Assembly (NCBI GenBank): GCA_902791035.1 | Contig: CADAUA010000005.1 | Span: 1-64,000 of the forward strand | Reading direction: 5' to 3' | DNA length: 64,000 nucleotides | Origin: an uncultured Coriobacteriaceae bacterium | GTDB lineage: Bacteria > Actinomycetota > Coriobacteriia > Coriobacteriales > Atopobiaceae | Shown here: piece after piece, positions 4,326-62,595 of the stretch | Position numbering within the stretch: the stretch's first letter is position 1 | Layout of the letters: each line of letters starts with the position of its first letter | The notes under the pieces: model-generated | What the model was told of the DNA's origin: nothing | The model's input: only the letters and a program-made list of their open reading frames with translations | Database searches by the model: none | Made by a program: the position numbers and the translations under genes

Positions 4326-6455
4326 GGGCGCGGCATCGGGGTCCGCTCCGATGGACAGGGTCAAGAGGCTCGGATTGGCGGCCATGGTCGGCTGCGTGGT
4401 CCTTCTTGCCGTGCGGCCGGCCTTGGCCTACGTGGACCCCTCGGTCATGACCTACACCATCCAGGCCCTGGCCGGCGTGGCCGTGGCCCTCTCGGCCGTG
4501 ATGGGCGTGGCCTTCCGCCGCTCGCGCAAGGCCATCCTGCGCTTCCTCCACGTGAACCCGGATGCCCATCGCGTGGTGGAGCCTGCGGTCCACCGGATCG
4601 ACGTGCAGAACAAGCGCATGGCCGACCAGGCCTACCTGACTCAGATGGGGCACCTCTCGGGCGGCGGGCCGGCCGAGAGGGACCGGCGCTACGAGGAGCC
4701 CTGGTCCCACCGGCTGGGCCTCGCCCTGGCCGTGGCGGCCTTCGTGGCCTTCACCCTCCTGGTGGTCGCCCCCTACGAGATTGTCGCGGCAAACAAGGAC
4801 AGCCTGACCTTTGGCCTGAGCAGCGTGTGGGAGCTCCTCCTGGCCGTTGCCGTGGGCATCGCCCTGGCCGTGGCGCTCGTGCTCTCCGCCCTGCGCGGGC
4901 GCGTCTTCCACGAGGCGCTCGCGGCCTTGGCCGCGCTGGGCGTGGCCTCCTGGCTGCAGGCCCTCTTCATGAACGGGGGCCTGCCGCTGGCCGACGGCAA
5001 CAGCGTCAACTGGACCCAGTACGGCATTCAGGCGCTCGTGACCGCCCTCGTGTGGGTAGGCCTCGTGGTGGGCCTCATGAAGGCCGCCAAGCACTTCCCG
5101 CGCCAGACCCGCCGCGCCCTCGTGGCGGCGTCGGGGGTCCTCTTGGTGGTACAGGCGGTGGGCGTGGGCAGCCTCTTTGCCGAGGGGGACGCCATCCCCG
5201 AGGAGAACCCCGCCATCATGACGGAGCAGGGCCTCTACGACGTGAGCCCGACCAACAACGTGGTCGTCTTCGTCCTGGACACCATGGAGACCAGGGAGAT
5301 CAAGGACTACTACGCCCGCAACCCCACCATGTTCGACGCCTACGACGGCTTTACCTGGTACCAGAACTCCGTTGGGTCCATGATCCCCACCCGCTACGGG
5401 GCCACCTACCTCCTGGCGGGGCAGTTCCCGCAGGTGGGGGAGACCTTTGCGGACTACCGGGCCCAGACCTACGACCGGAGCACCTTCCTCGACGACCTGG
5501 GCTCGCTGGGCTTCTCGGCCGCGGTGTACTCGGACGAGTCCGTTGCCTGGGACGAGCACTCCATGGCCTACCTGAGCACCCATACCATCAACGTGCACCC
5601 CGTGGGCGAGGACGCCCGCGCCGCCGTGGACCCGGTGGGGTCGCTCCAAGTCCTCTACAAGGCGGCCTGCTACCGGGACCTGCCCTGGCCTGCCAAGCCC
5701 TTCTTCTGGTTTAGCACCGAGGAGATAAACAACGGCATGACCGTGAGGAGCGCCGGGCCGACCTCGCCTCCAAGCCCTACGTGATGGACGACGCCAAGTA
5801 CATGGCCGAGCTCCAGGAGACGGGTGTGAGCGCCACCGACACGGGCGTGAGTGGGTCCTACCGCTTCATCCACCTCATGGGCTCCCACCCGCCCTACACG
5901 CTCTACCGTGATGGCACGCGGGTGGCGGCGGGCACCTATCCCGAGGACCAGTCCATCGGCGCCCTCAACATCGTGGCCACCTACCTGCAGAAGCTGAGGG
6001 ACGCAGGCGTCTACGACCAGACCACGGTGATCGTGACGGCCGACCACGGCGAGTGGTACTACACGGCGGAGCCACTGACCAGGCCCGTGAGCCCCATCAT
6101 GCTGGTAAAGCCGGCAGGCGCCCACGGGACCCTGCAGGTCAGCCAGGCCCCGGTGTGGGCGGCGGACGTGCAGGCGACGGTCCTGGCCGCCGCCGGCGCC
6201 GACGAGCAGATGCTGGCTGGCTACGAGGGCGTGCCCGTGTGGCAGATCCCCGAGGACGCGGAGCGCACGCGCACTTATTACATGACTACGAGCGACTGGG
6301 ACCGCGACGTCAACGTGACGGAGTACCACGTGGAGGGTCCCGCGGACGACATCGCCAGCTGGCACCTGACGGGTCGGGTGTGGGACGTCCAGGGATGGAG
6401 CGACGCGTCCAAGAACCCGCCGACGCCCAACGTGGGGCTGCTGCCCGGGGAGTAG
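4315..6455 (+). pseudogene. LTA synthase/sulfatase-like membrane protein, copy 2, frameshifted
   Basis: Second tandem paralogue. It starts at ATG 4315 (or 4351), overlapping copy 1 by 11 bases, with an intact signal segment (RPALAYVDPSVMTYTIQ). It has several membrane helices, then the sulfatase-like domain with VVFVLDTME and IPTRYG. Near 5743-5750 the frame breaks: after EINNGMTV the first frame runs into TGA at 5782-5784. The homologous sequence continues in another frame as EERRADLASKPYVMDD and on through RFIHLMGSH and the metal-site motif TADHGEW to 6455. Copy 1 has an uninterrupted NDLAS at the matching point, so one base is missing (or two added). The upstream frame lacks the DHG motif and would be inactive on its own. 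No slippery heptamer is visible in the overlap, so programmed frameshifting is unlikely. Confidence 0.75.
4424..4536 (+). repeat. 113-bp segment nearly identical to 2329-2441
   Basis: Positions 4424-4536 match 2329-2441 at every base except one (C here, G at 2360), and that difference creates the stop codon in copy 1. Sequence on both sides diverges clearly between the paralogues, which suggests local gene conversion before the nonsense change. Confidence 0.75.
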
Positions 6456-6517
6456 GGTGCGGATCGCGGGGGTCGCGGCGCGTCGCGGCATCGCGCCACC
6501 GTTGCGCGGTATCGGAT

Positions 6518-6601
6518 TAACGGACAGATGTTGGTTCAACAGCATATAACCGCAGGAAAATCTGGCGCGTAACGCTGTCATGTCCCAACTTCTGTCCGTT
6601 A
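6518..6601. repeat. Palindromic element A with GCAGG core
   Basis: Inverted arms TAACGGACAGA (6518-6528) and TCTGTCCGTTA (6591-6601) enclose an AT-rich core with ATATAACCGCAGG (6544-6556). A small internal hairpin, TGTTGGTTCAACA, lies before the core. It sits in the convergent gap after the sulfatase pair and shares its core with elements at 6657, 24455 and 34379. The gap 6456-6898 otherwise holds only element B and a terminator-like palindrome. Confidence 0.6.
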
Positions 6602-6656
6602 TTTCTGGCTACGGGTCCCCTGCCGATGCCAGCGCGGATTGTCCGCCGGGCGAACC

Positions 6657-6745
6657 TCAGGTTAGTAGAGCCCGCAGACGATTCGAACTTATATAACCGC
6701 AGGTAGAAAAATTGCGACTTCGCAAGTAGCACTCTACTAACCTGA
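6657..6745. repeat. Palindromic element B with GCAGGTAGA core
   Basis: Perfect 14-bp arms TCAGGTTAGTAGAG (6657-6670) and CTCTACTAACCTGA (6732-6745) flank ATATAACCGCAGGTAGA (6691-6707). The core matches element A, but the arms are unrelated to it in sequence. Confidence 0.6.
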
Positions 6746-6754
6746 AGTTTGTAT

Positions 6755-6791
6755 CGGTGGGCAGAAGGGGAGCACCCCTTTCTGCCCACCG
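6755..6791. terminator. GTGGGCAGA-AGGGG palindrome, probable bidirectional terminator
   Basis: A near-perfect stem formed by GGTGGGCAGA, AGGGG and CCCCTTTCTGCCCACC with a 4-base loop lies between two convergent genes. It belongs to the dispersed GGGGAGTACCCC palindrome family. It lacks a long T-run. Confidence 0.55.
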
Positions 6792-6898
6792 GCAGGGAGA
6801 AGGGCGGCCCCGTGTGTGCGGAGCCGCCCCTTCGCGAGTCAGCTTTGCGGACTGGTGGTGCGTGCTGTTCGCACGAGCCCAGGAAGAAGCCCTACCGG

Positions 6899-7849
6899 CT
6901 ACTTGGTGTAGTCGTAGAAGCCCTTGCCGGCGTTGACGCCCGTCTCGCCAGCGTCGATCTTCTCCTTGAGCCTGGTGGCGATGATGTTCTGGATGGTGCC
7001 GGGCTGCTTGGCCTCGGGCTTCATGATGGAAATGTTGTAGGCCGTCTGCAGGCCCACGATGTCGAGGATCTGCATGGGGCCGTTGGGGGCACCGGTGGAG
7101 AGCTTCCAGGCGAGGTCGATGTCCTCGGGGGAGCCCACGCCAGCGGCCCAGAGGCCCATGGCGGCGGAGAGGAAGGGCACGAGCATGGAGTTGAGCAGGT
7201 AGCCCGGAACCTCCTTCTGGACCTTGACGGGGACCATGCGGATGGCGGCCGCGAAGGCGACGGTGAGCTCGAAGGCCTCGTCGCCGGTGCCGGCGTGGCG
7301 CATGACCTCGGCCGTGGGCATCTTCCAGATTTCGTTGGCAAAGTGCAGGGCCAGGAACTTCTCGGGACGGCCGGTGTACTCGGCGAAGGTGGAGGGCAGC
7401 AGGGTGGAGGAGTTGGTCACGATGACGGTGCGCTCGGGGAGGTGCTTCTGGAGCTCGGTGTAGAAGTCCTTCTTCTGCTGCGGGTCCTCGGCCACGGCCT
7501 CGATCACGTAGTCGGCGTCCTTGAAGGCCTCGTCCCAGTCGGTGACGAGCTTGAGGTTCTTGTAGGCGGCCTCGACGTTGGCCTTGAGGGCCTCGCACTT
7601 CTCGGGCGTGCACTCCTCCTTGGCCACCAGACCGTAGGCGTAGGCACGCGGGTCGGTCTTCATGGCCTCCAGGGTGTCGAGGTAGATCTTGTGCAGGCGA
7701 TCGATCTTGGGCTGGCAGCGGCCGATGGAGCCCTCGCTGCGCAGCCAGATGGTCACGTCGTAGCCCATGTAGGCGCTCTGGAAGGCGATCTGGGAGCCCA
7801 GCACGCCGCCGCCGGCAACGACGACCTTCTTTACGTCCTTGATATCCAT
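6899..7849 (-). CDS. 3-hydroxyacyl-CoA dehydrogenase (3-hydroxybutyryl-CoA dehydrogenase type)
   Basis: Cytoplasmic NAD(P)-dependent dehydrogenase, 316 residues from ATG 7849. The start is chosen because AAAGG lies 9 bases upstream; a further ATG at 7858 would have that site abutting it. The N-terminal Rossmann fold has the dinucleotide motif VVVAGGGVLGSQ (residues 9-19). The substrate half has NSSTLLPS, then LHFANEIWKM followed 12 residues after the His by Glu in PTAEVM, the His-Glu pair expected for the family. The family oxidises 3-hydroxyacyl-CoA or reduces acetoacetyl-CoA in butyrate-type fermentation. The motif LHFAN differs from the usual HFFNP, so the exact substrate is uncertain. No other acyl-CoA genes lie nearby and it appears monocistronic. 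Confidence 0.85.
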   Translation of the reverse strand: MDIKDVKKVVVAGGGVLGSQIAFQSAYMGYDVTIWLRSEGSIGRCQPKIDRLHKIYLDTLEAMKTDPRAYAYGLVAKEECTPEKCEALKANVEAAYKNLKLVTDWDEAFKDADYVIEAVAEDPQQKKDFYTELQKHLPERTVIVTNSSTLLPSTFAEYTGRPEKFLALHFANEIWKMPTAEVMRHAGTGDEAFELTVAFAAAIRMVPVKVQKEVPGYLLNSMLVPFLSAAMGLWAAGVGSPEDIDLAWKLSTGAPNGPMQILDIVGLQTAYNISIMKPEAKQPGTIQNIIATRLKEKIDAGETGVNAGKGFYDYTK

Positions 7850-8801: not shown

Positions 8802-8872
8802 GAGACCAGTATGGCTGGCGTTGCCGACCGTTAGGATAGATGCCAAGTCACGCGCACGGCAGAGAGGACCCC

Positions 8873-10177
8873 ATGGCACGCAGCGTCCACTTCCATATCA
8901 CAAAGGGCTGGATGAACGACCCCAACGGCTTCATCTACTACAAAGGCGAGTACCACCTCTTCTACCAGTACTTTCCCTACGCGCCCGAGTGGGGCACGAT
9001 CTGCTGGGGCCACGCCGTGAGCAAGGACCTGGTCAACTGGGACCAGCAGGAGATAGCGCTCTTCCCGACCCTGCCGGAGGACCAGAACGGCTGCTTCTCG
9101 GGCAGCGCGGTCGAGGCGGACGGCCAGCTGCGCCTCTTCTACACCGGCGTCCACTACGACGAGGTGGACCCCACGAACATAAACAAGTGCGTTCCCGACC
9201 ACCTGACCTCGGCGCAGCTTGCCATGAGCTCCCCGGATGGCTACACCTTTGACAACTTCGCAAACAAGGCCGTGATCATCCCGCCCATCGGCGATCCCGC
9301 GCTGGGCGACCGCGTGCACACGCGCGACCCCAAGGTCTGGCGCGGCAGCGACGGCTGGTACATGGTGCTGGGCAGCAACGTGGACCGCAAGCAGGGGGAG
9401 ATCCTCTTCTACAGGAGCGACGACCTGGCACACTGGACCTTCGTCAACCGCAAGCTGATGGACCCGGGCTACGGCTGGATGTGCGAGTGCCCGGACCTCT
9501 TTGCCCTGCCAGGCGGCGACACCGTCCTTCTGGCCTCGATGATGGACTACATGGGGCAGGGCCATGACGAGTCGGTCTGCTTTACCGCGGGATTCGACGA
9601 GGCCACCTGCGACCTCAAGCTGCTCAGCGAGCCGCGCCTGGTGGACTATGGTTGCGACTTCTATGCACCGCAGACCACCACGGACGAGGCGGGCCGCCGG
9701 GTGATGATGGGCTGGATGCGCATGCCGGAACCCGTGGACAACAAGTGGATCGGCATGTTCTGCGCCCCACGCGTGGTGGAGGTGCGTGACGGCCACGTGT
9801 ACACCAGCCTGCACCCCAACGTCCGTGAGGCCCTTATCAAGAAGACCCTGGCCACCACCACGCACCGGCCCTACCTCTTCTCGCTGCAGCTCTCCGAGGG
9901 CAACCACGCGAACGTGGGCGGCCTGCGCATCTGGCAGGAGGGCCACCGCATCCACGTGGACCGCTCCAGCGTCTACCACGCCAAGCCCGGCTACGAGCAC
10001 GTGCTCTCCGTGACGCCCGAGGTAGGCGACACGAACAAGGTGGAGATCCTGGTGCACGGCCACCTGGTGGAGATATACGTGAACAACGGCCAGTACGTTG
10101 TGTCCAACATCGTCTATGGCCTGGGAGGGTCCTTTACCACCGACGCCAACGCCGAGATCACCGTGATCGGCCTCTAG
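8873..10177 (+). CDS. GH32 beta-fructofuranosidase / sucrose-6-phosphate hydrolase, paralogue 1
   Basis: Cytoplasmic GH32 hydrolase of 434 residues with no signal peptide; start ATG 8873 after AGAGGA. The three signature sites of the five-bladed propeller are present: WMNDPNG with nucleophile D16, RDPKVW (151-156) with the transition-state Asp, and ECPDLF with acid/base E205. It would split sucrose, sucrose-6-phosphate or a short fructan into fructose and the glucose moiety. It is shorter than the about 490 residues usual for the family and has a reduced C-terminal sandwich. It leads a run with sucrose phosphorylase and a HAD phosphatase and carries its own operator-type promoter. It is only distantly similar to the other three GH32 enzymes here, so a different preferred substrate is likely. 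Confidence 0.88.
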   Translation: MARSVHFHITKGWMNDPNGFIYYKGEYHLFYQYFPYAPEWGTICWGHAVSKDLVNWDQQEIALFPTLPEDQNGCFSGSAVEADGQLRLFYTGVHYDEVDPTNINKCVPDHLTSAQLAMSSPDGYTFDNFANKAVIIPPIGDPALGDRVHTRDPKVWRGSDGWYMVLGSNVDRKQGEILFYRSDDLAHWTFVNRKLMDPGYGWMCECPDLFALPGGDTVLLASMMDYMGQGHDESVCFTAGFDEATCDLKLLSEPRLVDYGCDFYAPQTTTDEAGRRVMMGWMRMPEPVDNKWIGMFCAPRVVEVRDGHVYTSLHPNVREALIKKTLATTTHRPYLFSLQLSEGNHANVGGLRIWQEGHRIHVDRSSVYHAKPGYEHVLSVTPEVGDTNKVEILVHGHLVEIYVNNGQYVVSNIVYGLGGSFTTDANAEITVIGL

Positions 10178-10283: not shown

Positions 10284-11705
10284 ATGAAGTTCAGCAACAA
10301 GATCATGCTCATCACCTACGCCGACAGCCTGGGCAAGAACCTGGCCGACCTGGACCAGGTGCTCGACACCTACTTCAAGGATGCCGTGGGCGGCGTGCAC
10401 ATCCTGCCCTTCTTTCCCTCCTCGGCGGACCGCGGCTTTGCCCCCATGCGCTACGACGTCGTGGACCCGGCCTTTGGCACCTGGGACGACGTGCGCCGCA
10501 TCGGCGACAAGCGCTACCTCATGTTCGACTTCATGATCAACCACATCTCGCGCCAGTCCCCCTACTTCCAGGACTTCCTGGCCAAGAAGGATGCCAGCGA
10601 GTTCGCGGACTTCTTCATCCGCTACAAGGACTTCTGGGCCAAGGAGGGCGGCTTCCCCACGCAGGAGCAGGTGGACGCCATCTACAAGCGCAAGCCCCGC
10701 GCGCCCTATGTGGAGGCCCAGTTCGCCGACGGCACCACCGAGAAGGTCTGGTGCACCTTTGGCGAGGAGCAGATCGACATCAACGTGAAGAGCGAGCGCG
10801 CCCAGCGATTCTTTGCCGAGACGCTCCAGAACATGGTGGCAAACAACGCGGCCATCATCCGCCTGGACGCCTTTGCCTACGCCTGCAAGCGGGCAGGCGG
10901 GTCGTGCTTCTTCGAGCAGCCCGACACCTCCGACCTGCTCGACGCCATGCAGGAGGTGGTGGGCGCGGACGTGATGGTCCTGCCGGAGATCCACGAGCAC
11001 TACACCATGCAGATGAAGGTCTCCCAGATGGGCTACTGGGTCTATGACTTCGCCCTGCCGGTGCTCACCCTGCACGCCCTCTACTCCGGCGACGGCCAGT
11101 ACCTCAAGCGCTGGCTGGAGATGAGCCCCAAGCACCAGTTCACCACCCTGGACACCCACGACGGCCTGGGCATCGTGGACGTCAAGGACCTCCTGCCCGA
11201 CGACCAGATCGACTGGACCAAGGAGAAGATGTTCTCCGAGGGTGCCAACGTGAAGAAGATCTACAACACCGAGGCCTACAACAACCTGGACATCTACCAG
11301 GTCAACACCACCTACTACTCGGCCCTGGGCAACGACGACAAGGCCTACGACCTGGCCCGCGCCATCCAGTTCTTTGCCCCGGGCGTCCCCATGGTCTACT
11401 ACGTGGGCCTTCTTGCCGGCGCAAACGACCTCAAGCTCCTGGAGTCCACCAAGGAGGGGCGCAACATCAACCGTCACTACTACTCGCTGGACGAGATCGC
11501 GGGCGAGGTGGAGCGCCCGGTGGTCCGGGAGCTGGTGCGGATGATGGAGCTGCGCAACAACCACCCGGCCTTCGACATCGAGGGCCAGATGGAGGTCACC
11601 TGCGGCGAGGGCGGCGCCTTCCGCATCCGCCGCACCTCGGGCGACGCCTGGGCCCAGCTGGACGCCAACCTGGCCACCCACGACTACACGATCACCCACT
11701 CGTAA
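10284..11705 (+). CDS. gtfA: Sucrose phosphorylase (GH13_18)
   Basis: A 473-residue cytoplasmic enzyme starting at ATG 10284 after AAGGAAGG. It is co-linear with sucrose phosphorylases: nucleophile D195 in IIRLDAFAY, acid/base E235 in VLPEIHEHY, and the D290 TLDTHDG motif, positions almost equal to those of the Bifidobacterium enzyme as I recall them. YYVGLLAG and NRHYYSLDEI are also family-typical. It converts sucrose plus phosphate to alpha-glucose-1-phosphate and fructose, saving an ATP compared with hydrolysis. Some close relatives act on sucrose-6F-phosphate instead, and sequence alone does not decide between them. That alternative deserves thought because sucrose probably enters here as the 6-phosphate through the PTS. 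The genes on either side (GH32, HAD phosphatase) lie in the same direction, so an operon is likely. Confidence 0.9.
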   Translation: MKFSNKIMLITYADSLGKNLADLDQVLDTYFKDAVGGVHILPFFPSSADRGFAPMRYDVVDPAFGTWDDVRRIGDKRYLMFDFMINHISRQSPYFQDFLAKKDASEFADFFIRYKDFWAKEGGFPTQEQVDAIYKRKPRAPYVEAQFADGTTEKVWCTFGEEQIDINVKSERAQRFFAETLQNMVANNAAIIRLDAFAYACKRAGGSCFFEQPDTSDLLDAMQEVVGADVMVLPEIHEHYTMQMKVSQMGYWVYDFALPVLTLHALYSGDGQYLKRWLEMSPKHQFTTLDTHDGLGIVDVKDLLPDDQIDWTKEKMFSEGANVKKIYNTEAYNNLDIYQVNTTYYSALGNDDKAYDLARAIQFFAPGVPMVYYVGLLAGANDLKLLESTKEGRNINRHYYSLDEIAGEVERPVVRELVRMMELRNNHPAFDIEGQMEVTCGEGGAFRIRRTSGDAWAQLDANLATHDYTITHS

Positions 11706-11738: not shown

Positions 11739-12638
11739 ATGCTGCCTGCAAACGAGCGGTTCCCGCATGGCATCGGCGCCGCCTACTACGACCTGGACGG
11801 CACCATCCTCAACCTCGACTACGTCTCGCCGCGGGTGATCGCCGCCATGAGGCGGGCGCACGAGGAGGGGCTCGTAAACGTGGTCTGCACCGGCCGCAAC
11901 CTGCCCATCGTGCCCGAGGTGGTCAAGGGCGACTTCGTGGACTACTACATAACCGTGAACGGCGGCCAGATCCTGGACGCCGCGGGGCGCCACCTGTTGA
12001 GCAAGGCCATCCCCCGCGAGAAGGCCCTGGAGCTCGCGGCCTGGCTCCACGGGCGTGGGGCCGGCCTCAACTGCCTGACCTCCACGGGAGCCTACTTCGA
12101 GAACCGCCTGGTGAGCTACATGACGCAGGCGGTCCATCGTGTGGAGAACAGCGACCGTCTGACCGACGAGGCCCTCACCGAGGAGATCACCAGCCAGCCA
12201 AACAAGTTCACGGTGGACGACATCACGCCCGAGCTCGAGGCCGTGGACGGCAAGACCAACTTCGTGGAGAAGATGGGTGCCTGCTTTGACACCCACGAGG
12301 ACCTGGAGCGCGACGTGGCCGAGCTCCAGGCCCGCGGCGACCTGCAGATCGCCGTGGTCACGCCGACCGAGATCGAGATCACGATCCTGGGCGTGGAGAA
12401 GGGCTCCGGGGTCGAGTGGGTCATGCGGCACCTGGGGCTGGAGAAGGACCAGCTGGTGGCCTTTGGCGACTCTGGCAACGACCTGCCCATGCGGCCGGCG
12501 GTGGGGACCTTCGTGGCCGTGGACAACGCCTCGGCCGAGGTCAAGGCCGTGGCGGACTGCGTGGTGGACTCCATCTGGGACGACGGCGTGGCCAAGTGGC
12601 TGGAGGCTGCCTGCGAGGGAAGCTACTACGCGCTCTAG
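11739..12638 (+). CDS. HAD-superfamily (Cof-type) sugar phosphatase
   Basis: A 299-residue Cof/IIB-type HAD hydrolase; ATG 11739 follows GGGGGAGAAGG. Motif I is YYDLDGTIL near residue 16, motif II CTGRN, and the C-terminal metal site GDSGNDLPM. Such enzymes dephosphorylate small phosphosugars in the cytoplasm. It lies 33 bases after sucrose phosphorylase and before the next GH32. It could relieve sugar-phosphate build-up or remove the phosphate from sucrose-6-phosphate so that the phosphorylase can act. The second idea is inference from position only. The broad specificity of the family makes any single substrate uncertain. Confidence 0.8.
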   Translation: MLPANERFPHGIGAAYYDLDGTILNLDYVSPRVIAAMRRAHEEGLVNVVCTGRNLPIVPEVVKGDFVDYYITVNGGQILDAAGRHLLSKAIPREKALELAAWLHGRGAGLNCLTSTGAYFENRLVSYMTQAVHRVENSDRLTDEALTEEITSQPNKFTVDDITPELEAVDGKTNFVEKMGACFDTHEDLERDVAELQARGDLQIAVVTPTEIEITILGVEKGSGVEWVMRHLGLEKDQLVAFGDSGNDLPMRPAVGTFVAVDNASAEVKAVADCVVDSIWDDGVAKWLEAACEGSYYAL

Positions 12639-12659
12639 GGCCAAGCGCAGCAAACGTAG

Positions 12660-12735
12660 GGGGTACTCCCCCGTGTTTTCCGAACACGGGGGAGTACCCC
12701 CAGTGTTTTCCGAACACGGGGGAGTACCCCCAGTG
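12660..12735. repeat. Tandem GGGGGAGTACCCCC palindromes with GTGTT/AACAC arms
   Basis: GGGGTACTCCCCCGTGTT pairs with AACACGGGGGAGTACCCC (12683-12700), and the second half is then repeated once more. This forms strong hairpins after the HAD gene and before the next promoter, probably acting as a terminator. It is a member of the window-wide GGGGAGTACCCC family. Confidence 0.7.
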
Positions 12736-12799
12736 TTCATCCACGGTGGGATCGCCGCTCACCATGCCCATGCGCCGCTCGCCGCGTTGTGGGATGGTG

Positions 12800-12821
12800 T
12801 GGAATCGTTCCCTCATACCAT
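12800..12821 (+). promoter_or_regulatory. Promoter with LacI/CcpA-like operator, site 2
   Basis: TGGAATCGTTCCCT (12800-12813) just precedes a -10-like TACCAT (12816-12821). It has the same spacing and surrounding bases as site 1 (GTGTGGAATCGTTC, then CATA-CAT and ACCAG-ATGG). The shared layout indicates common regulation of the two GH32 promoters. Confidence 0.6.
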
Positions 12822-12876
12822 AGAACCAGCATGGTTCAGTTCTCGGCAGCGCCACGTGGCGCGTGAGGAGAAGACG

Positions 12877-14358
12877 ATGAGCAACGACAGCTGGCGTCCC
12901 AAGCTACACCTGGCCCCCTACAACGGCTCGATCAGCGACCCCAACGGTCTCTGCCAGTTCCGTGGCACCTACCACATCTGCTGCCAGAACGCGCCGGAGT
13001 ATCCCGGCAACTACGACAGCCCCCACGGCTGGGGCCACTTCGTGAGCCGCGACCTTGTCAACTGGGTCTTCCTGGGCTGCCACGTGATGCCCGATGCCCC
13101 CAGCGACAAGGACGGCTCCTACTCCGGCGGCGCCTACGTGGCCGGCCCCGACGAGGCCCCGCACGGAGGCGAGGTCTGGTACTACTACACGGGCAACATC
13201 CGCTGGCCCGCGGGCGACGGCACCTACGCCGGCCGCCTGGCCAACCAGACCCGCATGCGCAGCTACAACGGCATAAACATGGGTCCCAAGGAGGTCGTGC
13301 TCGACAACTCCGGCTATCCCTCCTACTGCTCCAACCACGTGCGCGACCCCAAGGTCTGGCGCCAGGACGGCCGCCTGCACATGCTGCTGGGCGCCCGCAC
13401 GCGCGAGGACTCCCGCGGCTCCATCCTTTGCTACGGCTCCGACGATGGCGTAAGGTGGGCGCTCGAGGGCTCCGTCACGAACACCGGGGCCGAGCCCTTC
13501 GGCTACATGTGGGAGTGCCCGGACCGCATCGTCCTCAAGGATGCGGCCGGCGCCGAGCACCAGTTCCTGGCAACCTGCCCCCAGGGCACGAACGAGCTGG
13601 GGCTTCCCTACAAGCTGCAGAACGTCCATGGCAACGGCTACTTCCCGCTGGAGGGCGACCTTCTCGACCTCCTGCACCAGGACACCGAGCTCATGGCAGC
13701 CAAGGCCCCGCACGCGGCCATCGACCAGGAGACCTTCGTCGAGTGGGACCACGGCTTCGACTTCTACGCCTGCCAGACGCTGGCCGCCGAGGACGGACGC
13801 CTCTTCCTGATTGGCTGGATGAGCCTGCCGCACGACAAGTACGACGTGCGTCCCTACGACAACCCCACCGACACCTGGCGCGGCTGCCTCACCGTGCCGC
13901 GCGTCCTCTCGCTGGGCGAGGACGGCCGCATCCTCCAGTGGCCCGCCGAGGAGATAACGGCCCTGCGCGGCGAAGCCCAGGCCTTCGACGGCACTGCGGC
14001 CACCATGCCCAAGTGCGCGGACCTCACGCTCGAGGGCATCACGGGCGACGGCGTGCTGCGCTTCGACGATGCCCTTGAGCTGCGTGTGCACGAGGGCGTG
14101 GCCGAGCTTGTATTTACGGACGACAAGGTCGGTCAGGGCCGCAAGGCCCGTCGCACCCTCTGCGGCAGCGTGCACGACATCCGCGTGATCGTGGACACCT
14201 CCGTGCTGGAGATCTACCTCAACGGCGGCGAGACGGTCTTTGGCACGCGCTACTTCTCCGAGGCGGACGAGCTGGCCGTGACGGCCGACCTGCCGGGTGC
14301 CAAGGGCACCTGGTATCCCATGGATCCCATCTCGATCAACTACGTGGTCGACCGGTAA
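12877..14358 (+). CDS. GH32 enzyme, paralogue 2, with SDPNG in place of NDPNG
   Basis: A 493-residue cytoplasmic GH32 protein, ATG 12877 after GAGGAG. The propeller sites are GSISDPNG (nucleophile D21), VRDPKVW (Asp at 157) and MWECPD (acid/base E213). A beta-sandwich from about residue 350 ends in the usual VDTSVLEIYLNGG strand. The residue before the nucleophile is Ser, not the near-universal Asn of (W)MNDPNG, and the preceding aromatic is gone too. Paralogue 3 shows the same trend with Thr. In GH32 enzymes this motif lines the fructosyl subsite and its variation is associated with altered substrate or transferase behaviour, so a substrate other than plain sucrose is plausible. It has its own operator-type promoter and terminator. 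Confidence 0.85.
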   Translation: MSNDSWRPKLHLAPYNGSISDPNGLCQFRGTYHICCQNAPEYPGNYDSPHGWGHFVSRDLVNWVFLGCHVMPDAPSDKDGSYSGGAYVAGPDEAPHGGEVWYYYTGNIRWPAGDGTYAGRLANQTRMRSYNGINMGPKEVVLDNSGYPSYCSNHVRDPKVWRQDGRLHMLLGARTREDSRGSILCYGSDDGVRWALEGSVTNTGAEPFGYMWECPDRIVLKDAAGAEHQFLATCPQGTNELGLPYKLQNVHGNGYFPLEGDLLDLLHQDTELMAAKAPHAAIDQETFVEWDHGFDFYACQTLAAEDGRLFLIGWMSLPHDKYDVRPYDNPTDTWRGCLTVPRVLSLGEDGRILQWPAEEITALRGEAQAFDGTAATMPKCADLTLEGITGDGVLRFDDALELRVHEGVAELVFTDDKVGQGRKARRTLCGSVHDIRVIVDTSVLEIYLNGGETVFGTRYFSEADELAVTADLPGAKGTWYPMDPISINYVVDR

Positions 14359-14390
14359 AATCGAGACTCTTGAGCCACATGTAGACGAGC

Positions 14391-14419
14391 GGGCACCAGG
14401 GGAGTACCCCTTGGTGCCC
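14391..14419. terminator. GGGCACCAGGGG-AGTA-CCCC hairpin
   Basis: GGGCACCAGGGG pairs with CCCCTTGGTGCCC around AGTA, just after the GH32 gene, with CCCCTTTAG following. It is probably its terminator and belongs to the dispersed palindrome family. Confidence 0.6.
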
Positions 14420-14437: not shown

Positions 14438-14611
14438 TGCACCCGCGATGAGCGACGCGACGAAAAAGGGCAGTTGAGCTGTGGCTCGGTAATGTCGCGG
14501 GTGCAGAAAAGGGCGTATACAGGCCAAAATCTGCACCCGCGATGGCAGTAGCACATCCTACATAGCAAGAAGTCGCAGGTGGGCCAGAGGTGTCCCCGCA
14601 TCGCGGGTGCA
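14438..14611. repeat. Two palindromic elements with TGCACCCGCGATG arms (D and E)
   Basis: Four arms alternate in direction: TGCACCCGCGATG at 14438-14450 and 14532-14544, and their complements at 14493-14505 (one mismatch in the last bases) and 14599-14611. Element E (14532-14611) is 80 bp with perfect 13-bp arms and GCAGGTGGG near its centre (14575). It has the same design as the elements at 6518, 6657 and 34379. No gene lies in this gap. Confidence 0.6.
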
Positions 14612-16944: not shown

Positions 16945-18465
16945 CTACTCGCCAGTGCCCTCGAAGGTCGCGGCGCGCATGGTCCAGGCGCGGTGCGTGG
17001 CCGGCAGGGTGGACGCGACGTGCAGTAGGTCGATCCTCTCGGGATACCAGCGGGTGGTGAGGGTCTTCTCGCCGCCGTTGACGTAGATCTCCACCACCGA
17101 GGTGTCCACGAGCACGCGCAGGTCGGTCACGCGGCCGGCCGAGAGGTCGGAGACGCGCAGTCGGCGCACGGTGCGGTAGGCGCCGGCGGGGGAGAGGAAG
17201 GCCAGCTCGAGCAGGCCGTCCGAGACCATGAGCTCAAGGTCGCCGTTGAGGAGGATGCGGCCGTCGCCCTGGATGTCGGTGACCTCGAGGTCGCAGGCGC
17301 CGCCCGCGAAGCCGGCCCCGATGGCACCCGTCAGGTCGTACTCGTCGTTCTTGGCGGAGCCCACGGTGCCGGTGGTGCCGTGCAGACCCTCTCCCACGAG
17401 CTCGACGGGCTCGTCACGCAGGACATCGATCTCGGGCACCGGCCACTGACACACCAGACCGGCCTCGTTTAGGCTGAGCACGCGCGGCACGGTGAGGGTG
17501 TGGGTCCACTCGCGGGTGGGGTTGTCGTACTGGGTCTCGATGTCGGGCAGGCCCACCCAGCCCACAAGGAGCGTGCGGCCCTTCTCGTCCTCGAAGCTCT
17601 GCGGGGCGTAGAAGTCGAAGCCATAGTCCCAGGCCACGAAGGTCGAGGCGTCGATGCAGGGATAAGGCCCGTCCGCGTCCATGAGGGCGGGGTCGGCGCC
17701 CAGGGCGTCCACCACGGTGCCCTCCAGCGGGAAGTAGCCGGAGTCGTGCACATTCTGGAAGGCGAAGTCCTGCTTGGACACGCCCTGGGGGCACACGAGC
17801 AGGAACTCACGCCTGTCCAGGCAGATGCGGTTGGGGCACTCCCACATGTAGCCGAAGGTGCCCTCGCCGGTGTTCGTGGCCGAGCCCTCGAGCTTCCAGC
17901 TCAGACCGTCCTCGCCCCCGTAGAGAAGGACGGCGCCGCGGTCACCCTTGGCGCGGGCGCCCAGGAGCATGTGCCAGCGGCCGTCCTGCTCCCAGACCTT
18001 GGGGTCGCGCACGTGGCAGGAGCAGTAGGAGGGGTAGCTCTCGTTGCCCAGGACCAGGCGCTTCTCGCCGTAGTGCTCACCGTCGCTCACCACCAGAATC
18101 TCGTTGGCCAGGCGACCGGAGTAGTCGTAGTCGTGCTTGCCCGGTAGGAGCTGGTTGCCCGTGTAGTAGCACCACATCTGGCCGTCGTGGATGGTGGCCG
18201 AGCCGGAGTAGGAGCCGTTCTTGTCCATGGTGCAGCTGGGCATGATGGGCGAGCCGCACCAGCGCCAGCTCACCAGGTCCTCGCTCTCCCAGTGGCCCCA
18301 GCCGTGGGCGGCGTCGGGCCAGAGCCGGCGGTGCTGGTGGAAGAAGTGATAGGTGCCGTTGAGCTGGCAGAGGCCGTTGGGATCGGTGATGTCGCCAGTC
18401 TGGGTCTGCAGGTGGAACCTCAGACGCCAGTTGTGCTTCTGGTTGAAGGAGTAGTTGAGGGGCAT
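16945..18465 (-). CDS. GH32 enzyme, paralogue 3, with TDPNG in place of NDPNG
   Basis: A 506-residue cytoplasmic GH32 protein; ATG 18465 is preceded by a perfect AAGGAGGT. Sites: GDITDPNG (nucleophile D28), VRDPKVW and MWECPN (acid/base Glu). A C-terminal sandwich ends in VDTSVVEIYVNGG. It is closest to paralogue 2 in this window: both share the HGWGH loop, TNTG-FGYMWECP, GYFPLEG and FDFYA-Q motifs, and both lack the Asn of NDPNG. It is the last gene of the PTS/fructokinase run, 66 bases after fructokinase with a hairpin between. This makes it a good candidate for the hydrolase that acts on the imported phosphorylated disaccharide. Confidence 0.87.
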   Translation of the reverse strand: MPLNYSFNQKHNWRLRFHLQTQTGDITDPNGLCQLNGTYHFFHQHRRLWPDAAHGWGHWESEDLVSWRWCGSPIMPSCTMDKNGSYSGSATIHDGQMWCYYTGNQLLPGKHDYDYSGRLANEILVVSDGEHYGEKRLVLGNESYPSYCSCHVRDPKVWEQDGRWHMLLGARAKGDRGAVLLYGGEDGLSWKLEGSATNTGEGTFGYMWECPNRICLDRREFLLVCPQGVSKQDFAFQNVHDSGYFPLEGTVVDALGADPALMDADGPYPCIDASTFVAWDYGFDFYAPQSFEDEKGRTLLVGWVGLPDIETQYDNPTREWTHTLTVPRVLSLNEAGLVCQWPVPEIDVLRDEPVELVGEGLHGTTGTVGSAKNDEYDLTGAIGAGFAGGACDLEVTDIQGDGRILLNGDLELMVSDGLLELAFLSPAGAYRTVRRLRVSDLSAGRVTDLRVLVDTSVVEIYVNGGEKTLTTRWYPERIDLLHVASTLPATHRAWTMRAATFEGTGE

Positions 18466-18486
18466 GCCGTACCTCCTTAAAGACAA

Positions 18487-22796: not shown

Positions 22797-22948
22797 CGGA
22801 CGCCCCTCCCGTGGTCCGTGGAGAATGTCCGCTGGCACCAGGAAGGATGCTATGCGGGGTAGCCGTGTTATAAGCTTACGCTGATGGCGCGTGAGCCATG
22901 GCGTGCAAGCCCCGGACGAGTCAAATTGACCAACAGAAGGAGCATATC

Positions 22949-24391
22949 ATGACGACCGCCCTTACCAAGGACCTTGACCACCTGCGTGCACTGGTGGAGA
23001 ACCAGGCGGATCCCGGCAGGTACGCGCAGCGCTTCCACCTGATGCCGCCCGTGGGCTGGCTCAACGACCCCAACGGCCTCTGCCAGTTCAAGGGCACCTA
23101 CCATGCCTTCTTCCAGTACTCGCCCTTCGACGCCGAGGGTGGCGTCAAGATGTGGGGCCACTCGGAGAGCCGGGACATGGTGGCTTGGGACTACGTTGGC
23201 ACGCCGCTCTACCCCGACCAGCCCTTCGACGTGTCGGGCGTGTACTCGGGCTGTGCCTACGTGGAGGACGACGTGATGAACGTCTTCTACACCGGCAACG
23301 TCAAGCGCCTGGAGTCTGACGACTACGACTACGTGAACGAGGGGCGCGAGGCAAACACCATCCGCACCACCAGCACCGACGGGCGCACCTTCGAGCGCCG
23401 CCACGTGGTGCTGGACAACAAGGACTACCCGGCCGACGACACAGAGCACGTGCGCGATCCCAAGGTCTGGCGCGAGGGCGACAAGTACTACATGGTGCAG
23501 GGCGCCCGGCGCGAGGACGACCACGGCGAGGTGCTCGTGTTCGCCTCGCCCGACATGGAGAAGTGGGAGCTCGTGAACCGCATTACCACCGAGTACCCCT
23601 TTGGCTACATGTGGGAGTGCCCGGACTACTTCGAGGTGCCCGACCTCATGCTGGAGGGGGAGACGGCCAAGGTGCTCTCGGTCTCCCCGCAGGGGCTCGA
23701 GGGCGGTGACTGGGACCGCAGGAACGTCTACCAGTCCGGCTACTTCGTGCTGCGGGGCGACGTGCGCCGCAAGTACCGCCTGCAGCCCTTCGCCCTGTGG
23801 GACGCGGGCTTCGACTTCTACGCGCCGCAGACCTTCCAGGCCCAGGATGGCCGCCGCATCCTCATCGGCTGGATGGGCATGCCCGACGAGAAGACCTACG
23901 TGAACCCCACGGTGGAGGACGGCTGGCAGCACTGCTTCACCCTGCCGCGCGAGGTGACGGTGCGCTACGGGCGCGTGTGCCAGTGGCCCGTGCGCGAGCT
24001 GGAGCGCTACCGGACGAACCTGCGCGAGGGCAAGGGCGAGCTGGTGGCGCGTGACGCGCCCGCCTTCGACCTGGTGCTGGACGGCTTCCCCGAGCATCTA
24101 AACTTCGCCTACGTCAAGCTGGCGGGGCAGCTGGCCATCACCTGGGGCAGCGGCGTGCTCGAGCTGCGCTTCCTGGACGAGTCCAAGGACGGCGTGGGTG
24201 CCGGGCGACGGGTACGCTACGAGCACCTGAACGGTCTGCGCAACGTCCGCATCGTGGGCGACGCGTCATCGGTGGAGGTCTTCGTGAACGACGGCGAGCT
24301 GACCTTCTCCACGCGCTACTACCCCCAGGAGTACGGGGTGACGGTGGACGCGCCGGGGGCGCACGTGCGCATGTGGGACCTCGTGCGATAG
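22949..24391 (+). CDS. scrB: GH32 sucrose-6-phosphate hydrolase, paralogue 4 (canonical)
   Basis: A 480-residue cytoplasmic GH32; ATG 22949 follows AGAAGGAG. The motifs are textbook: VGWLNDPNG (N39, nucleophile D40), VRDPKVW, and YMWECPDYF with the acid/base Glu. The FDFYAPQTFQ and IGWMGMP segments and the C-terminal sandwich are complete. It is divergent from the LacI regulator with a gap of about 150 bases. Unlike paralogues 1 and 2 I could not find the TGnAAnCGTTC operator before it; the AT-rich TTATAAGCTTACGC may hold the promoter. By motif conservation this is the best scrB candidate of the four, though paralogue 3 is physically in the PTS operon. Confidence 0.87.
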   Translation: MTTALTKDLDHLRALVENQADPGRYAQRFHLMPPVGWLNDPNGLCQFKGTYHAFFQYSPFDAEGGVKMWGHSESRDMVAWDYVGTPLYPDQPFDVSGVYSGCAYVEDDVMNVFYTGNVKRLESDDYDYVNEGREANTIRTTSTDGRTFERRHVVLDNKDYPADDTEHVRDPKVWREGDKYYMVQGARREDDHGEVLVFASPDMEKWELVNRITTEYPFGYMWECPDYFEVPDLMLEGETAKVLSVSPQGLEGGDWDRRNVYQSGYFVLRGDVRRKYRLQPFALWDAGFDFYAPQTFQAQDGRRILIGWMGMPDEKTYVNPTVEDGWQHCFTLPREVTVRYGRVCQWPVRELERYRTNLREGKGELVARDAPAFDLVLDGFPEHLNFAYVKLAGQLAITWGSGVLELRFLDESKDGVGAGRRVRYEHLNGLRNVRIVGDASSVEVFVNDGELTFSTRYYPQEYGVTVDAPGAHVRMWDLVR

Positions 24392-24408
24392 CGGGCGCCT
24401 GCGAGAGT

Positions 24409-24437
24409 GGGCACCAGGGGGGTACCCCCTGGTGCCC
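24409..24437. terminator. GGGCACCAGGGGG-GTACCCCC palindrome
   Basis: A 29-base near-perfect palindrome (GGGCACCAGGGGG paired with CCCCCTGGTGCCC) 17 bases after the GH32 stop. It is a probable terminator and a member of the dispersed family. Confidence 0.6.
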
Positions 24438-24454: not shown

Positions 24455-24578
24455 GAAATAACGGACAGATGTTTTCCGGGCCCTTGTTACCTGTAACACG
24501 GACAGCGCGTCTACCTGCGTATATACAAAATGGAACCGTCTATTATTGCAGAAGTGATGCAAATATGTCCGTTATTTC
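24455..24578. repeat. Palindromic element C with GCAGGTAGA core (reverse orientation)
   Basis: Perfect 13-bp arms GAAATAACGGACA (24455-24467) and TGTCCGTTATTTC (24566-24578) share AACGGACAGATGTT with element A. The core, read on the minus strand, is TATATACGCAGGTAGA. The right arm contains the stop codon of the PIN toxin gene. Confidence 0.6.
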
Positions 24579-34096: not shown

Positions 34097-34378
34097 GTTT
34101 CCTCCTTGCATAGGGATTCGGCAAGCGTGGGGATAGGGCAAGTCTAGTCGCGTGGATGGCCGGTGCACCGCCGGCGGCCAAGAATACCCACGCTGGTAAC
34201 GCTGGGCGCGTACGAGGCCGCTCCGGCCTGTCATGGGCTGGCCCGCGGGCCGTGCCCGTGGCGCTGATTGGTCGGCTCTGCCGCCTGACGGGATCCCGGA
34301 GGTGCCGGCGGGCGATGGAAGCTGCGCATACGTGCATAGCGATGGAACATAACACCCTGGATGGCCTAAGGCAAGCAT

Positions 34379-34462
34379 ACACTTGGCGCAAAAGGATATA
34401 ATTGCAAAAAATATATTGGCAGGTAGACGAATTACGGGTCAGATGGTAGTGATCCCAAGTGT
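34379..34462. repeat. Palindromic element F with GCAGGTAGA core
   Basis: Arms ACACTTGG (34379-34386) and CCAAGTGT (34455-34462) enclose ATATATTGGCAGGTAGACG (34411-34429). The element is 84 bp, the same size as element A, and the core matches B and C. The surrounding gap 34097-34643 (isocitrate dehydrogenase upstream region) is unusually AT-rich and holds no gene I can support. Confidence 0.5.
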
Positions 34463-34543
34463 GTGATTGTTTCTGGGCATCGCGAGTATCCAGGCGATGC
34501 GGCTTGAAGTCATGCGTATAGATTTTGGATAAAAATGCATAAA

Positions 34544-36938: not shown

Positions 36939-37050
36939 TCTGTTCTCAACTCCCAAGTGTGAGCCCGCATAGCGGGCGGATGTGTTCGCTCTCCTATGGT
37001 ACCCGCCGGCCGCGATTCCGTTCCGCGGGACTCAACGTTACGTTGCGGGG

Positions 37051-37176
37051 GCGCCCGTCCGCATGGGAGCGCCCGTCCGCATGGGGGCGCCCGTCCGCAT
37101 GGGGGCGCCCGTCCGCATGGGGGCGCCCGTCCGCATGGGGGCGCCCGTCCGCATGGGGGTACCCGTCCGCATGGGG
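37051..37176. repeat. 18-bp tandem repeat, seven copies
   Basis: The unit GCGCCCGTCCGCATGGGG (18 bp) is repeated seven times with only two imperfect copies (first and last). It lies between the divergent DUF3825 and GDPD genes. As 18 is a multiple of three all frames stay open, but no ribosome site or conserved protein supports coding. Confidence 0.85.
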
Positions 37177-37279
37177 GCGCGCCGGACGGGTAAGAAGTCC
37201 ATAATGTCGGGGATCGGATATGCCGCGGCGCGACTTGCGCCACGCGGTGCGACCCGTGCCACACGGACGGAGGAACCAC

Positions 37280-38194: not shown

Positions 38195-38205
38195 GGCCTT
38201 GGCTG

Positions 38206-38238
38206 GTGGGCAGAAGGGGAGTATCCCCTGGTGCCCGG
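38206..38238. terminator. GTGGGCAGAAGGGGA-GTATCCCCTGGTGCCC palindrome
   Basis: An imperfect member of the GGGGAGTACCCC family between the convergent GDPD and TrmB genes, probably a terminator for one or both. Confidence 0.5.
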
Positions 38239-40063: not shown

Positions 40064-40410
40064 TTTGCACGTTTGCGGGGCGGTCCCGCACATATGCCCC
40101 GCGGTTCCGCACGTTTGCCCCGCGGTTCCGCCCTTATGCCCGCCGCCGGAGCACGTTTGCCCTGCACAAATGGGCGGCGGTGGCGGGAGCACGTTTGCCC
40201 CGCGGTTCCGCACGTTTGCCCCGCGGTCCCGCCCTTATGCCCGCCGCCGGAGCACGTTTGCTCGGCACAAATGGGCGGCGGTCACGGGAGCACGTTTGTC
40301 CCGCGGTTCCGCACGTTTGCCCCGCGGTTCCGCACGTTTGGCCCGCAGAGAAGCACGTTTGCCCGCCGCAGGTGACCCTTTGCGGCGGGCAAACGTGCAG
40401 GTAGGCGGAA
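40064..40410. repeat. CACGTTTGCC repeat cluster 1
   Basis: About a dozen copies of GCACGTTTGCC (or the inverse) are interspersed with CCGCGGTTCCG and hairpin-forming CAAATGGGCGGCGG. A 101-bp higher-order unit (from 40131 and again from 40232) is visible. It fills most of the 580-base gap between the YfbR-like and pyrophosphatase genes. Irregular spacing and no unique spacers rule out CRISPR. Confidence 0.8.
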
Positions 40411-40438
40411 CAAACGTCAACAAGTGCGGTCAATCAGC

Positions 40439-46513: not shown

Positions 46514-46537
46514 GGCAGTAGCGTCTCGCTCGGGGAT

Positions 46538-46685
46538 GGCGTGACAGCCAGGACCGAGGTGGCGTGACAGCCAGGACCGAGGTGGCGTGACAGCCAGGAC
46601 CGAGGTGGCGTGACAGTCAGGACCGAGGTGGCGTGACAGCCAGGACCGAGGTGGCGTGACAGCCAGGACCGAGGTGGCGTGACAG
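46538..46685. repeat. 23-bp tandem repeat, six copies
   Basis: GGCGTGACAGCCAGGACCGAGGT is repeated six times, with one C-to-T change in the fourth, then a partial copy. It lies between the PrsW-type gene and the serine acetyltransferase promoter. The 23-bp period does not keep a reading frame, so it is not coding. Confidence 0.9.
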
Positions 46686-46753
46686 ACCCCGCGTGACACG
46701 GTACCCGACCCCGCGTGGGTGCTCGAACAGCCGTGAACACCGCACACAAATTC

Positions 46754-52039: not shown

Positions 52040-52375
52040 TGCCCCGCAAATGGGCCGTGGCGGCGGGGAAACGTGCTCCGGCGGCGGGTGCCCGTTTGTG
52101 GCGGGCAAACGTGCTCCGGCGGCGGGTGCCCGTTTGTGGCGGACAAACGTGCTCCGACGGCGGGCATAGGGGCGGGACCACGGGGCTAACGTGCGGGACC
52201 GCGGAGCAAACGTGCAGCGCTGCCCCACATAAGGGCTCCCGCGACCCCTGCCCGTTTGTGGCGGGCAAACGTGCTCCGGCGGCGGGCATAGGGGCGGAAC
52301 CGCGGGGCAAACGTGCAGCGTTGCGGGGCAAACGTGCGGGACCACGGGTCAAACGTGCAACCCTGCCCGGCGCCC
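52040..52375. repeat. CACGTTTGCC repeat cluster 2 (reverse orientation)
   Basis: About ten copies of GGCAAACGTGC with GGACCGCGGGG-type and GCCCGTTTGTGGCGG hairpin words. The last 100 bases are nearly identical to 56108-56225. It occupies most of the 588-base gap before the antiterminator gene; the rest holds GGTGACAAAAGGTC words (52396-52420). Confidence 0.8.
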
Positions 52376-52553
52376 GGTCTGCCGCACCAGGCTATGGTGA
52401 CAAAGGTGACAAAAGGTCGGACCCCACGCAGGGCAGACCCACGCAGACCCCCCAGCCAAGGCCCCGTTGGGCCCTCTTACCGCGGGGCGCGGCACGGGAA
52501 GGGCCCAACGCGCTATCCTGTTACGACGCTCGGAAGGTTCGGTAGGGGGTGCC

Positions 52554-56074: not shown

Positions 56075-56225
56075 CGCCCGCCACAAATGGGCCTCCGCGA
56101 CCGCTGCCCATTTGTGGCGGACAAACGTGTACCGGCGGCGGGCATAAGGGCGGGACCACGGGGCAAACGTGCAGCGTTGCGGGGCAAACGTGCGGGACCA
56201 CGGGTCAAACGTGCAACTCTGCCCG
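56075..56225. repeat. CACGTTTGCC repeat cluster 3
   Basis: CCGCCACAAATGGGC and GCCCATTTGTGGCGG pair as a hairpin. GGCAAACGTGC copies follow, nearly identical to the end of cluster 2. GGTGACAAAGGTGACAAAAGGTCAGACCCC words fill 56250-56350, repeating a motif seen at 52396. Confidence 0.8.
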
Positions 56226-56352
56226 GCATTCGATTCTCCGGATCAGACCCCGGTGACAGCTGCACCAGACCCCGGTGACAAAGGTGACAAAAGGTCAGAC
56301 CCCGGTGACAGCCGCACCAGACCTCGGTGACAAAAGGTCAGACCCCACGGGG

Positions 56353-62480: not shown

Positions 62481-62595
62481 GTGGGCACTAGGGGTGGTAC
62501 TCCCTTCAAACACAGGGGGTACTCCCCCGTGTTTGGGGAAACGCGGGGGAGTACCCCCTGTGTTTATCAGGGGAGTACCCCCTGGTGCCCACCCG
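62481..62595. repeat. Cluster of GGGGGAGTACCCCC palindromes
   Basis: Several overlapping units: GGGTGGGCACTAGGGG halves, AAACACAGGGGGTACTCCCCCGTGTTT, GGGGGAGTACCCCCTGTGTTT and GGGGAGTACCCCCTGGTGCCCACC. It forms strong stem-loops between the phospholipase-like gene and the GH13 gene, and is probably a terminator region as well as a repeat hot spot. Confidence 0.75.

Follow-up and report, generated by a model that had tools for sequence, protein, structure and literature searches.

A family of dispersed palindromic elements in Atopobiaceae with one conserved core inside subfamily-specific arms

We describe here a family of dispersed palindromic elements of Atopobiaceae, in which each element has two inverted arms, set an almost constant distance apart with a conserved, asymmetric core between them, and in which the sequence of the arms is specific to the subfamily. 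We describe the elements as REPIN/BIME-like in their working and not as members of the RAYT-REPIN family; they do not look like a product of chance and seem to represent a repeat family of a kind not described so far. As to their nature, we give about even chances to a REPIN/BIME-like element family that would be read by a putative sequence-specific factor; this is the reading preferred below. The analysis started from a single stretch of 64,000 nucleotides (hereafter the window; G000:C5:1-64000) of a 2.69-Mb genome, which is available in 37 contigs and has a GC content of 67%. For one protein of the window, the best named relatives are from an uncultured actinobacterium (89% identity) and from Olsenella porci (77%); on this basis we call the source an Olsenella-like gut bacterium and take its family to be the Atopobiaceae.

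The original prediction had listed five elements in the window. Four of them (at 6.5, 6.7, 24.5 and 34.4 kb) match the core model, while the fifth, at 14532-14611, scores below 15:

6517..6602, plus strand: subfamily C1 element of 86 bp; arms TTAACGGACAGATGTTGG / CCAACTTCTGTCCGTTAT; core CATATAACCGCAGGAAAA; core score 28.9
6653..6749, plus strand: subfamily B element; arms AACCTCAGGTTAGTAGAG / CTCTACTAACCTGAAGTT; core TTATATAACCGCAGGTAGA; core score 54.1
14532..14611, no strand assigned: inverted repeat TGCACCCGCGATG / CATCGCGGGTGCA with 13-bp perfect arms; weak core-like GCAGGTGGG; membership unsupported
24455..24578, minus strand: subfamily E element; arms GAAATAACGGACA / TGTCCGTTATTTC; core TGTATATACGCAGGTAGA; core score 39.2
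34372..34469, plus strand: subfamily D element; arms CAAGCATACACTTGG / CCAAGTGTGTGATTG; core AATATATTGGCAGGTAGA; core score 48.5

When the window was scanned with a weight matrix trained on the genome's own copies (two of the four copies in the window were in the training set), the core was found at 6699(+) with a score of 54.1, at 34419(+) with 48.5, at 24518(-) with 39.2 and at 6552(+) with 28.9. No score above 15 was obtained in the rest of the window, and none above 10 in a shuffled window. The inverted repeat at 14532-14611 was hence not retained as a family member; of the core, only GCAGGTGGG is present there. The arm sequence assigned to the element at 6517-6602 is TAACGGACAGATGTTGG, and its mate lies at 76 bp from start to start, like in other C copies. 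In the B element at 6653-6749, the distance from AGGTTAGTAGAG to AGGTTAGTAGAG is 73 bp, a value also found in the other intact B copies except one (74). Two more copies of subfamily D are located in the genome, namely at C16:35123 and C16:41101.

The core approximates TTGRTTnnAnTTCATATAWnCGCAGGTAGAnGnnTTGC. The expected further copies were indeed found in the genome: a sequence-only model matched 54 places at E<=1, 53 of which gave a consensus close to TTGGTTnnAnTTCATATAAnCGCAGGTAGAnGnnTTGC, and the exact pattern ATATA-n1-5-GCAGGTAGA occurs 17 times but not once in a reversed control (17 vs 0). The likeness of the core among the five copies first listed is therefore not due to chance.

Several identities of the core were considered and rejected. 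A TATAAT-like core as a promoter does not fit, because the hexamer is not constrained at its last base and a -35 box at the usual spacing is missing. The reverse strand of the core (ACCTGCGGTT) recalls helix 45 of 16S rRNA, but this resemblance misfits the free positions beside GCAGG and was dropped. The short core pattern was hit in 11 viral contigs, among which only two, identical in sequence, scored above 22; these two resemble a fortuitous AT-rich match that lacks arms, and a viral origin was rejected. Also, neither GC skew nor the long-range orientation of the core along the contigs gave a clear signal of replication polarity.

Among 140 genomes of the family, the exact core pattern was found in 37 (with one match in the control) and the extended core model in 87 at E<=0.01; G102 and G106 each have about 30 places at E<=0.05 with the extended model. 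Outside the family, the exact pattern matched in 12 of about 230 genomes in an order-wide sample, which is not far above a possible chance level. The relatives share the same core, with arms that depend on the genus and the subfamily: AGTTCGGAAGGCTTCCAAACTT in G057, AAGTGCGTAACT in G134, TGACTTTTGCACGAGCG in the congeneric set of G102, G106 and G109, and others elsewhere. In some relatives the core lacks arms or takes the form of a dyad, ATCTACCTGCGG-n13-CCGCAGGTAGAT; the g14 genomes have the core in its full dyad form, which in two of them lies downstream of the same chloride-channel gene. In open-licence papers on palindromic repeats or RNA motifs of Olsenella, Collinsella, Coriobacteria and Atopobium, the family was not recognisable, which is weak evidence of its absence from the literature.

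In terms of their arms, the copies in the genome can be categorized into subfamilies. Subfamily A (28 clean copies) has the arms TGTCASTTGCAGGTG, often in the form of 30-bp palindromes CACCTGCAAGTGACATGTCACTTGCAGGTG on both sides; subfamily B (12 copies) has CGAACTTCAGGTTAGTAGAG; and subfamily C (about 20 copies) has AATAACGGACAGA, with the usual core in the C1 form and with AAAACCGCAGGATT or TTTCCGCAGGATT as the core in the C2 form. Subfamilies D and E have three copies each, and there are also a few single copies as well as two copies without obvious arms. The distance between the arms is kept even where the spacer is not: it is 85 bp in 11 of the 12 B copies, the spacers of which have diverged in sequence, and 85-87 bp in C, while the inner 9-mers of A are mostly 90 or 91 bp apart, again with spacers of variable sequence in both. 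In the congeneric set, the element measures exactly 116 bp in all of the 30 copies read, and that of G057, which belongs to another genus, measures 120 bp in 10 of 11 copies. The arms had been proposed to differ while their pairing is kept. Unrelated paired arms do recur, but the arms are subfamily-specific and near-invariant within one genome, so that the differences fall between subfamilies and between species and not copy by copy. Furthermore, at three loci B arms are also present beyond the element on either side, as tandem repeats that include adjacent DNA and follow each other in steps of about 39-52 bp:

C6:150229-150481: tandem B-arm repeats, with three B arms to either side and 42 bp per step
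C21:17025-17202: tandem B-arm repeats
C2:13921-14100: tandem B-arm repeats

The pairing of the arms bears on an alternative, namely that the element acts as a structured RNA where transcripts end. Its hairpin, with the core in the loop, would terminate, process or protect mRNAs. We consider this conceivable but unlikely. Computed folds indicate that the elements can form hairpins, and paired arms of unrelated sequence are what such an RNA would be expected to have. Covariation was found in part. The 15-bp arms of the congeneric set were paired in 341/360, compared with 317 for permuted partners (z=5); in B, copy-specific pairing extends beyond the arms into outer stems (56/132 versus 43, p=0.007); and an apical helix, different in sequence between copies, is present in C2 (p=0.0005 in a test over registers) and strong in about 4 of 11 copies. 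The excess of pairing was less clear in the G057 set (p=0.04), and the D set was left out of the pairing tallies. In the outer arms of the congeneric set, where covariation was also sought, the compensated changes were not significant once related copies had been collapsed, and they are not claimed here. In the congeneric set, the mismatches counted on the core strand also suit an RNA, with G-T exceeding A-C by 50:20 when related copies are included; the ratio is nonetheless 8:7 in subfamily A, and no transcribed strand is thus established.

Against a structured RNA, furthermore, the arms are conserved as sequence, and subfamily A tolerates G-G and C-C mismatches in the middle of the stem: at one position of the arm, each side has C or G regardless of the other side, with GG in 7 and CC in 6 of the 28 clean copies. 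As this position lies within an otherwise near-invariant arm, it argues that the arm sequence is read and that pairing alone is not what is maintained. Judging from these sequence patterns, the arms would be subject to both pairing and sequence reading. Rfam gave no match in the window at the gathering score and, for eight element loci, nothing beyond chance-level matches at E<=5. When 6300-7000 was checked for an intrinsic terminator (a G+C-rich hairpin and then a run of T), only one small stem of five pairs with a T tail was detected, which lies within the B element and was not clearly above shuffles.

The location of the elements relative to genes, as called with our own simple caller, is in favour of both an RNA at 3' ends and the preferred reading. 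None of the 68 copies placed between two called genes falls within a gene. Their gaps are convergent in 31 cases, tandem in 29 and divergent in 8, as compared with 47, 99 and 58, respectively, for all gaps of >=150 bp in the same stretches; convergent gaps are hence enriched (p=6e-4) and divergent gaps depleted (p=0.005). In tandem gaps, the 3' end of the upstream gene is the nearer one in 21 of 29 cases here and in 29 of 39 in relatives, where related copies are not fully independent. Within the window, a preference for convergent gaps had been noted; the gaps at 6.5, 14.5 and 24.5 kb are indeed convergent, but the 34.4-kb copy is placed between two genes of the minus strand. The orientation of the core against transcription was tried as a further signal and rejected: it is opposite in 21 and the same in 8 cases in this genome, compared with 10 and 29, respectively, in relatives. 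Because the bias is reversed, nothing is concluded from the orientation itself, and the reversal speaks against a structured RNA. In G106, two elements were noticed in the rplL-rpoB gap (L306:10418-10797), which is a site of transcription attenuation and RNA processing in other bacteria.

The relatives G102, G106, G109 and G107 have a common syntenic block, and G102 and G106 carry elements at orthologous places in six gaps. Over ten orthologous pairs, differences were counted at 9/320 positions of the arms (2.8%, an estimate of conservation that is biased upward because the compared copies were recognised partly by their arms, with <=4 mismatches in 15, and strongly decayed arms would be missed), at 75/390 of the core region and at about 100/470 of the spacer (about 21%). 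The orientation of the core is identical in all of the ten pairs (G102, G106 and G109). Given the difference between arms and spacer and the kept orientation, the elements are inherited at orthologous sites, and the arms appear to be constrained in place. No near-identical dispersed copies were found; together with the occurrence of copies at orthologous places in related species, this leaves mobility unproven. The original prediction, in which the elements were either structured RNAs or mobile palindromes, was right in outline, and the family extends genome-wide and family-wide, but neither the mobility nor a transcribed strand is established.

The constant orientation in 10/10 pairs also bears on the idea that the elements are invertible segments, in which the arms serve as recombinase sites and the core is flipped. 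Identical inverted arms common to the copies of one genome would be in line with this idea, as would the reversed core at one gap of G107 (site 3), where the orthology of the copy is uncertain. No sigma-70-like promoter was found in 6300-7000, however, and divergent gaps are depleted; we regard inversion as extremely improbable.

Constraint on the arms at orthologous sites, fixed spacing and reading of the arm sequence are, in turn, what would be expected if the elements were sites of chromosome-organising or regulatory proteins that never transposed but spread by local duplication and slow gain. The steps of the extra B arms (~42 bp) are close to four helical turns, and the full dyad form of the core in the g14 genomes would also suit a protein site. 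Such an origin is nevertheless rather doubtful: unrelated arms within one genome would require several readers, the contigs have no orientation or GC-skew pattern, and the copy-specific pairing of B and C2 is unexpected for double-stranded binding sites.

A hint of exchanged arms comes from the prfC gap, in which the arms are GACTTATGTACGAGC / GCTCGTACATAAGTC in G098 and GACTTTTGCACGAGC / GCTCGTGCATAAGTC in G106. The spacers of these two elements are the best match among all copies (0.77-0.79) and are clearly orthologous, and the arm form GACTTATGTACGAGC is found again in another copy of G098. This would be consistent with a genome-wide marking system with concerted rewriting, in which sites are inherited vertically and keep their positions, a core factor common to the whole family acts along with species-specific arm readers, and the arms of all sites in a genome change together; we hold this to be unlikely. 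An element of G107 with GGCGTATGCGAGAGC arms on both sides, situated where a locally inverted gene ends and where the orthologous gap is to be expected, is only suggestive as another example of arm exchange; its spacer identity is 0.62, and the ortholog is not singled out. As a separate observation, two copies of one element in G106 (L307:6253-11273) have two genes of ABC transporters and one of a LysR-type regulator between them, while G098 has a single element at the same place (L143). Duplication or loss between the repeats, or insertion at the element, could have led to this difference.

It is useful to compare the preferred reading with known systems. MITEs are short and intergenic and have inverted, conserved ends. 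A set of MITEs moved by DDE insertion sequences, with a common internal site for a host factor, would account for the inverted ends, for the length of about 85-135 bp and for the ends common within a subfamily. Here, nonetheless, the usual pattern is reversed, with conservation in the centre and exchange at the ends; the spacers of dispersed copies are unrelated though their length is fixed; and where the arms of subfamilies A, B and C matched, no long element with the family ends was found. This origin is hence considered highly unlikely. In the BIMEs of E. coli, palindromic units flank a central motif that binds a protein, and BIMEs are located at gene 3' ends. The elements described here are like BIMEs in the layout and in the location at gene 3' ends; the sequences are unrelated.

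REPINs are REP doublets associated with RAYT transposases (Bertels and Rainey 2011, PMC3116915). The resemblance to REPINs consists in conserved arms that are paired in inverted orientation with characteristic spacings (85 bp in B, 116 bp in the congeneric set and 120 bp in G057), a less conserved spacer, many extragenic and hairpin-capable copies, numbering in the tens, and tandem arm clusters with flanking DNA (PMC3116915, PMC3733652). Unlike in REPINs, one core is shared family-wide inside unrelated arms, the arms appear to be constrained at orthologous sites, and none of the RAYT genes present here has these arms at its sides. Another class, the GTAG- and CGTC-tagged REP dimers, consists of palindromic units that associate in twos at 20-100 bp from each other, with a structured spacer in some cases, and that occur in clusters with flanking DNA (Di Nocera et al. 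2013, PMC3733652); Olsenella and Atopobium are not mentioned in that paper. In our elements, by contrast, no terminal GTAG or CGTC tag was recognised, and the shared sequence is central.

In the preferred reading, each element, with its two inverted subfamily-specific arms at a fixed distance and the asymmetric core between them, can form a hairpin as single-stranded DNA or RNA. A putative sequence-specific trans-acting protein, which would differ between subfamilies and species, may read the arms, and a second putative factor, common to the whole family, may read the core. The copies would derive from past hairpin-based duplication, as proposed for REPINs. Judging from the position of the elements, the copies would be retained today because a complex assembled on them acts at gene ends, where it most likely would mark or insulate the ends of transcription. 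The conserved centre, the exchanged arms and the apparent constraint on the arms argue against purely selfish copies. The family thereby opens a long-standing question to testing, namely for what reason REP-like palindromes are maintained at the ends of bacterial genes and by which proteins they are read, and it sets the core-family sites apart from the adjoining palindromes that are linked to RAYTs.

The genome has five Y1_Tnp (RAYT) genes, each of which is flanked by palindromes of another kind, and neither the arms nor the core of the family was found within 1.5 kb of them; RAYTs as the mobiliser of the family are thus unsupported. Also, Y1_Tnp had no match in G084 and G134, although both genomes contain elements. 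One of the five genes, L211 (C1:438491-438763), is flanked by GGGCACTAAGGGGTACTCCCTTT, which is of the same kind as the GGGGAGTACCCC palindromes of the window:

6755-6787: GGGGAGTACCCC palindrome
14387-14419: GGGGAGTACCCC palindrome
24405-24437: GGGGAGTACCCC palindrome
38204-38236: GGGGAGTACCCC palindrome
62558-62590: GGGGAGTACCCC palindrome

These palindromes had been noted to adjoin the elements; they do lie near those at 6.7, 14.5 and 24.5 kb but constitute a separate repeat family, and they are probably the REP elements of the L211 transposase. L210 is flanked by CACCTCGGTCCTG and CTGTCACGCCAC, the unit of a 23-bp tandem array, TGGCGTGACAGCCAGGACCGAGG, at 46514-46720 of the window, which is probably a tandem REP cluster. 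The flanking palindromes of L207, L208 and L209 are of still other kinds; indeed, these three and other RAYT-like genes (L240, L243 and L244) have their own flanking inverted repeats each, and the RAYT-flanking repeat of G102 and G106 is GTGACAAAGGGGTCGTAGCCGACTGTCACAT. RAYT-REP systems in these Actinobacteria apparently form a rich and unexplored set. The repeat beside the RAYT-like gene of G109 (L244:2203-2324) includes CCGCAGGTAAAACCTGC, which is core-like; this was the sole such case seen, and the resemblance is probably a coincidence.

Other features were noticed in the window. Long inverted and direct repeats of GGCAAACGTGC / GCACGTTTGCC units at 40065-40411, 52046-52402 and 56081-56258 look like more palindromic repeat clusters, which are unrelated to the core family, and a tandem array of several copies of the 18-bp unit GGGGGCGCCCGTCCGCAT is located at 37029-37198. 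Four genes like those of sucrose-6-phosphate hydrolase/fructosidase and one of sucrose phosphorylase (8840-10177, 12277-14358, 16945-18486, 22898-24391 and 10284-11705) make up, over 16 kb, what resembles a region for the utilisation of sucrose or fructan.
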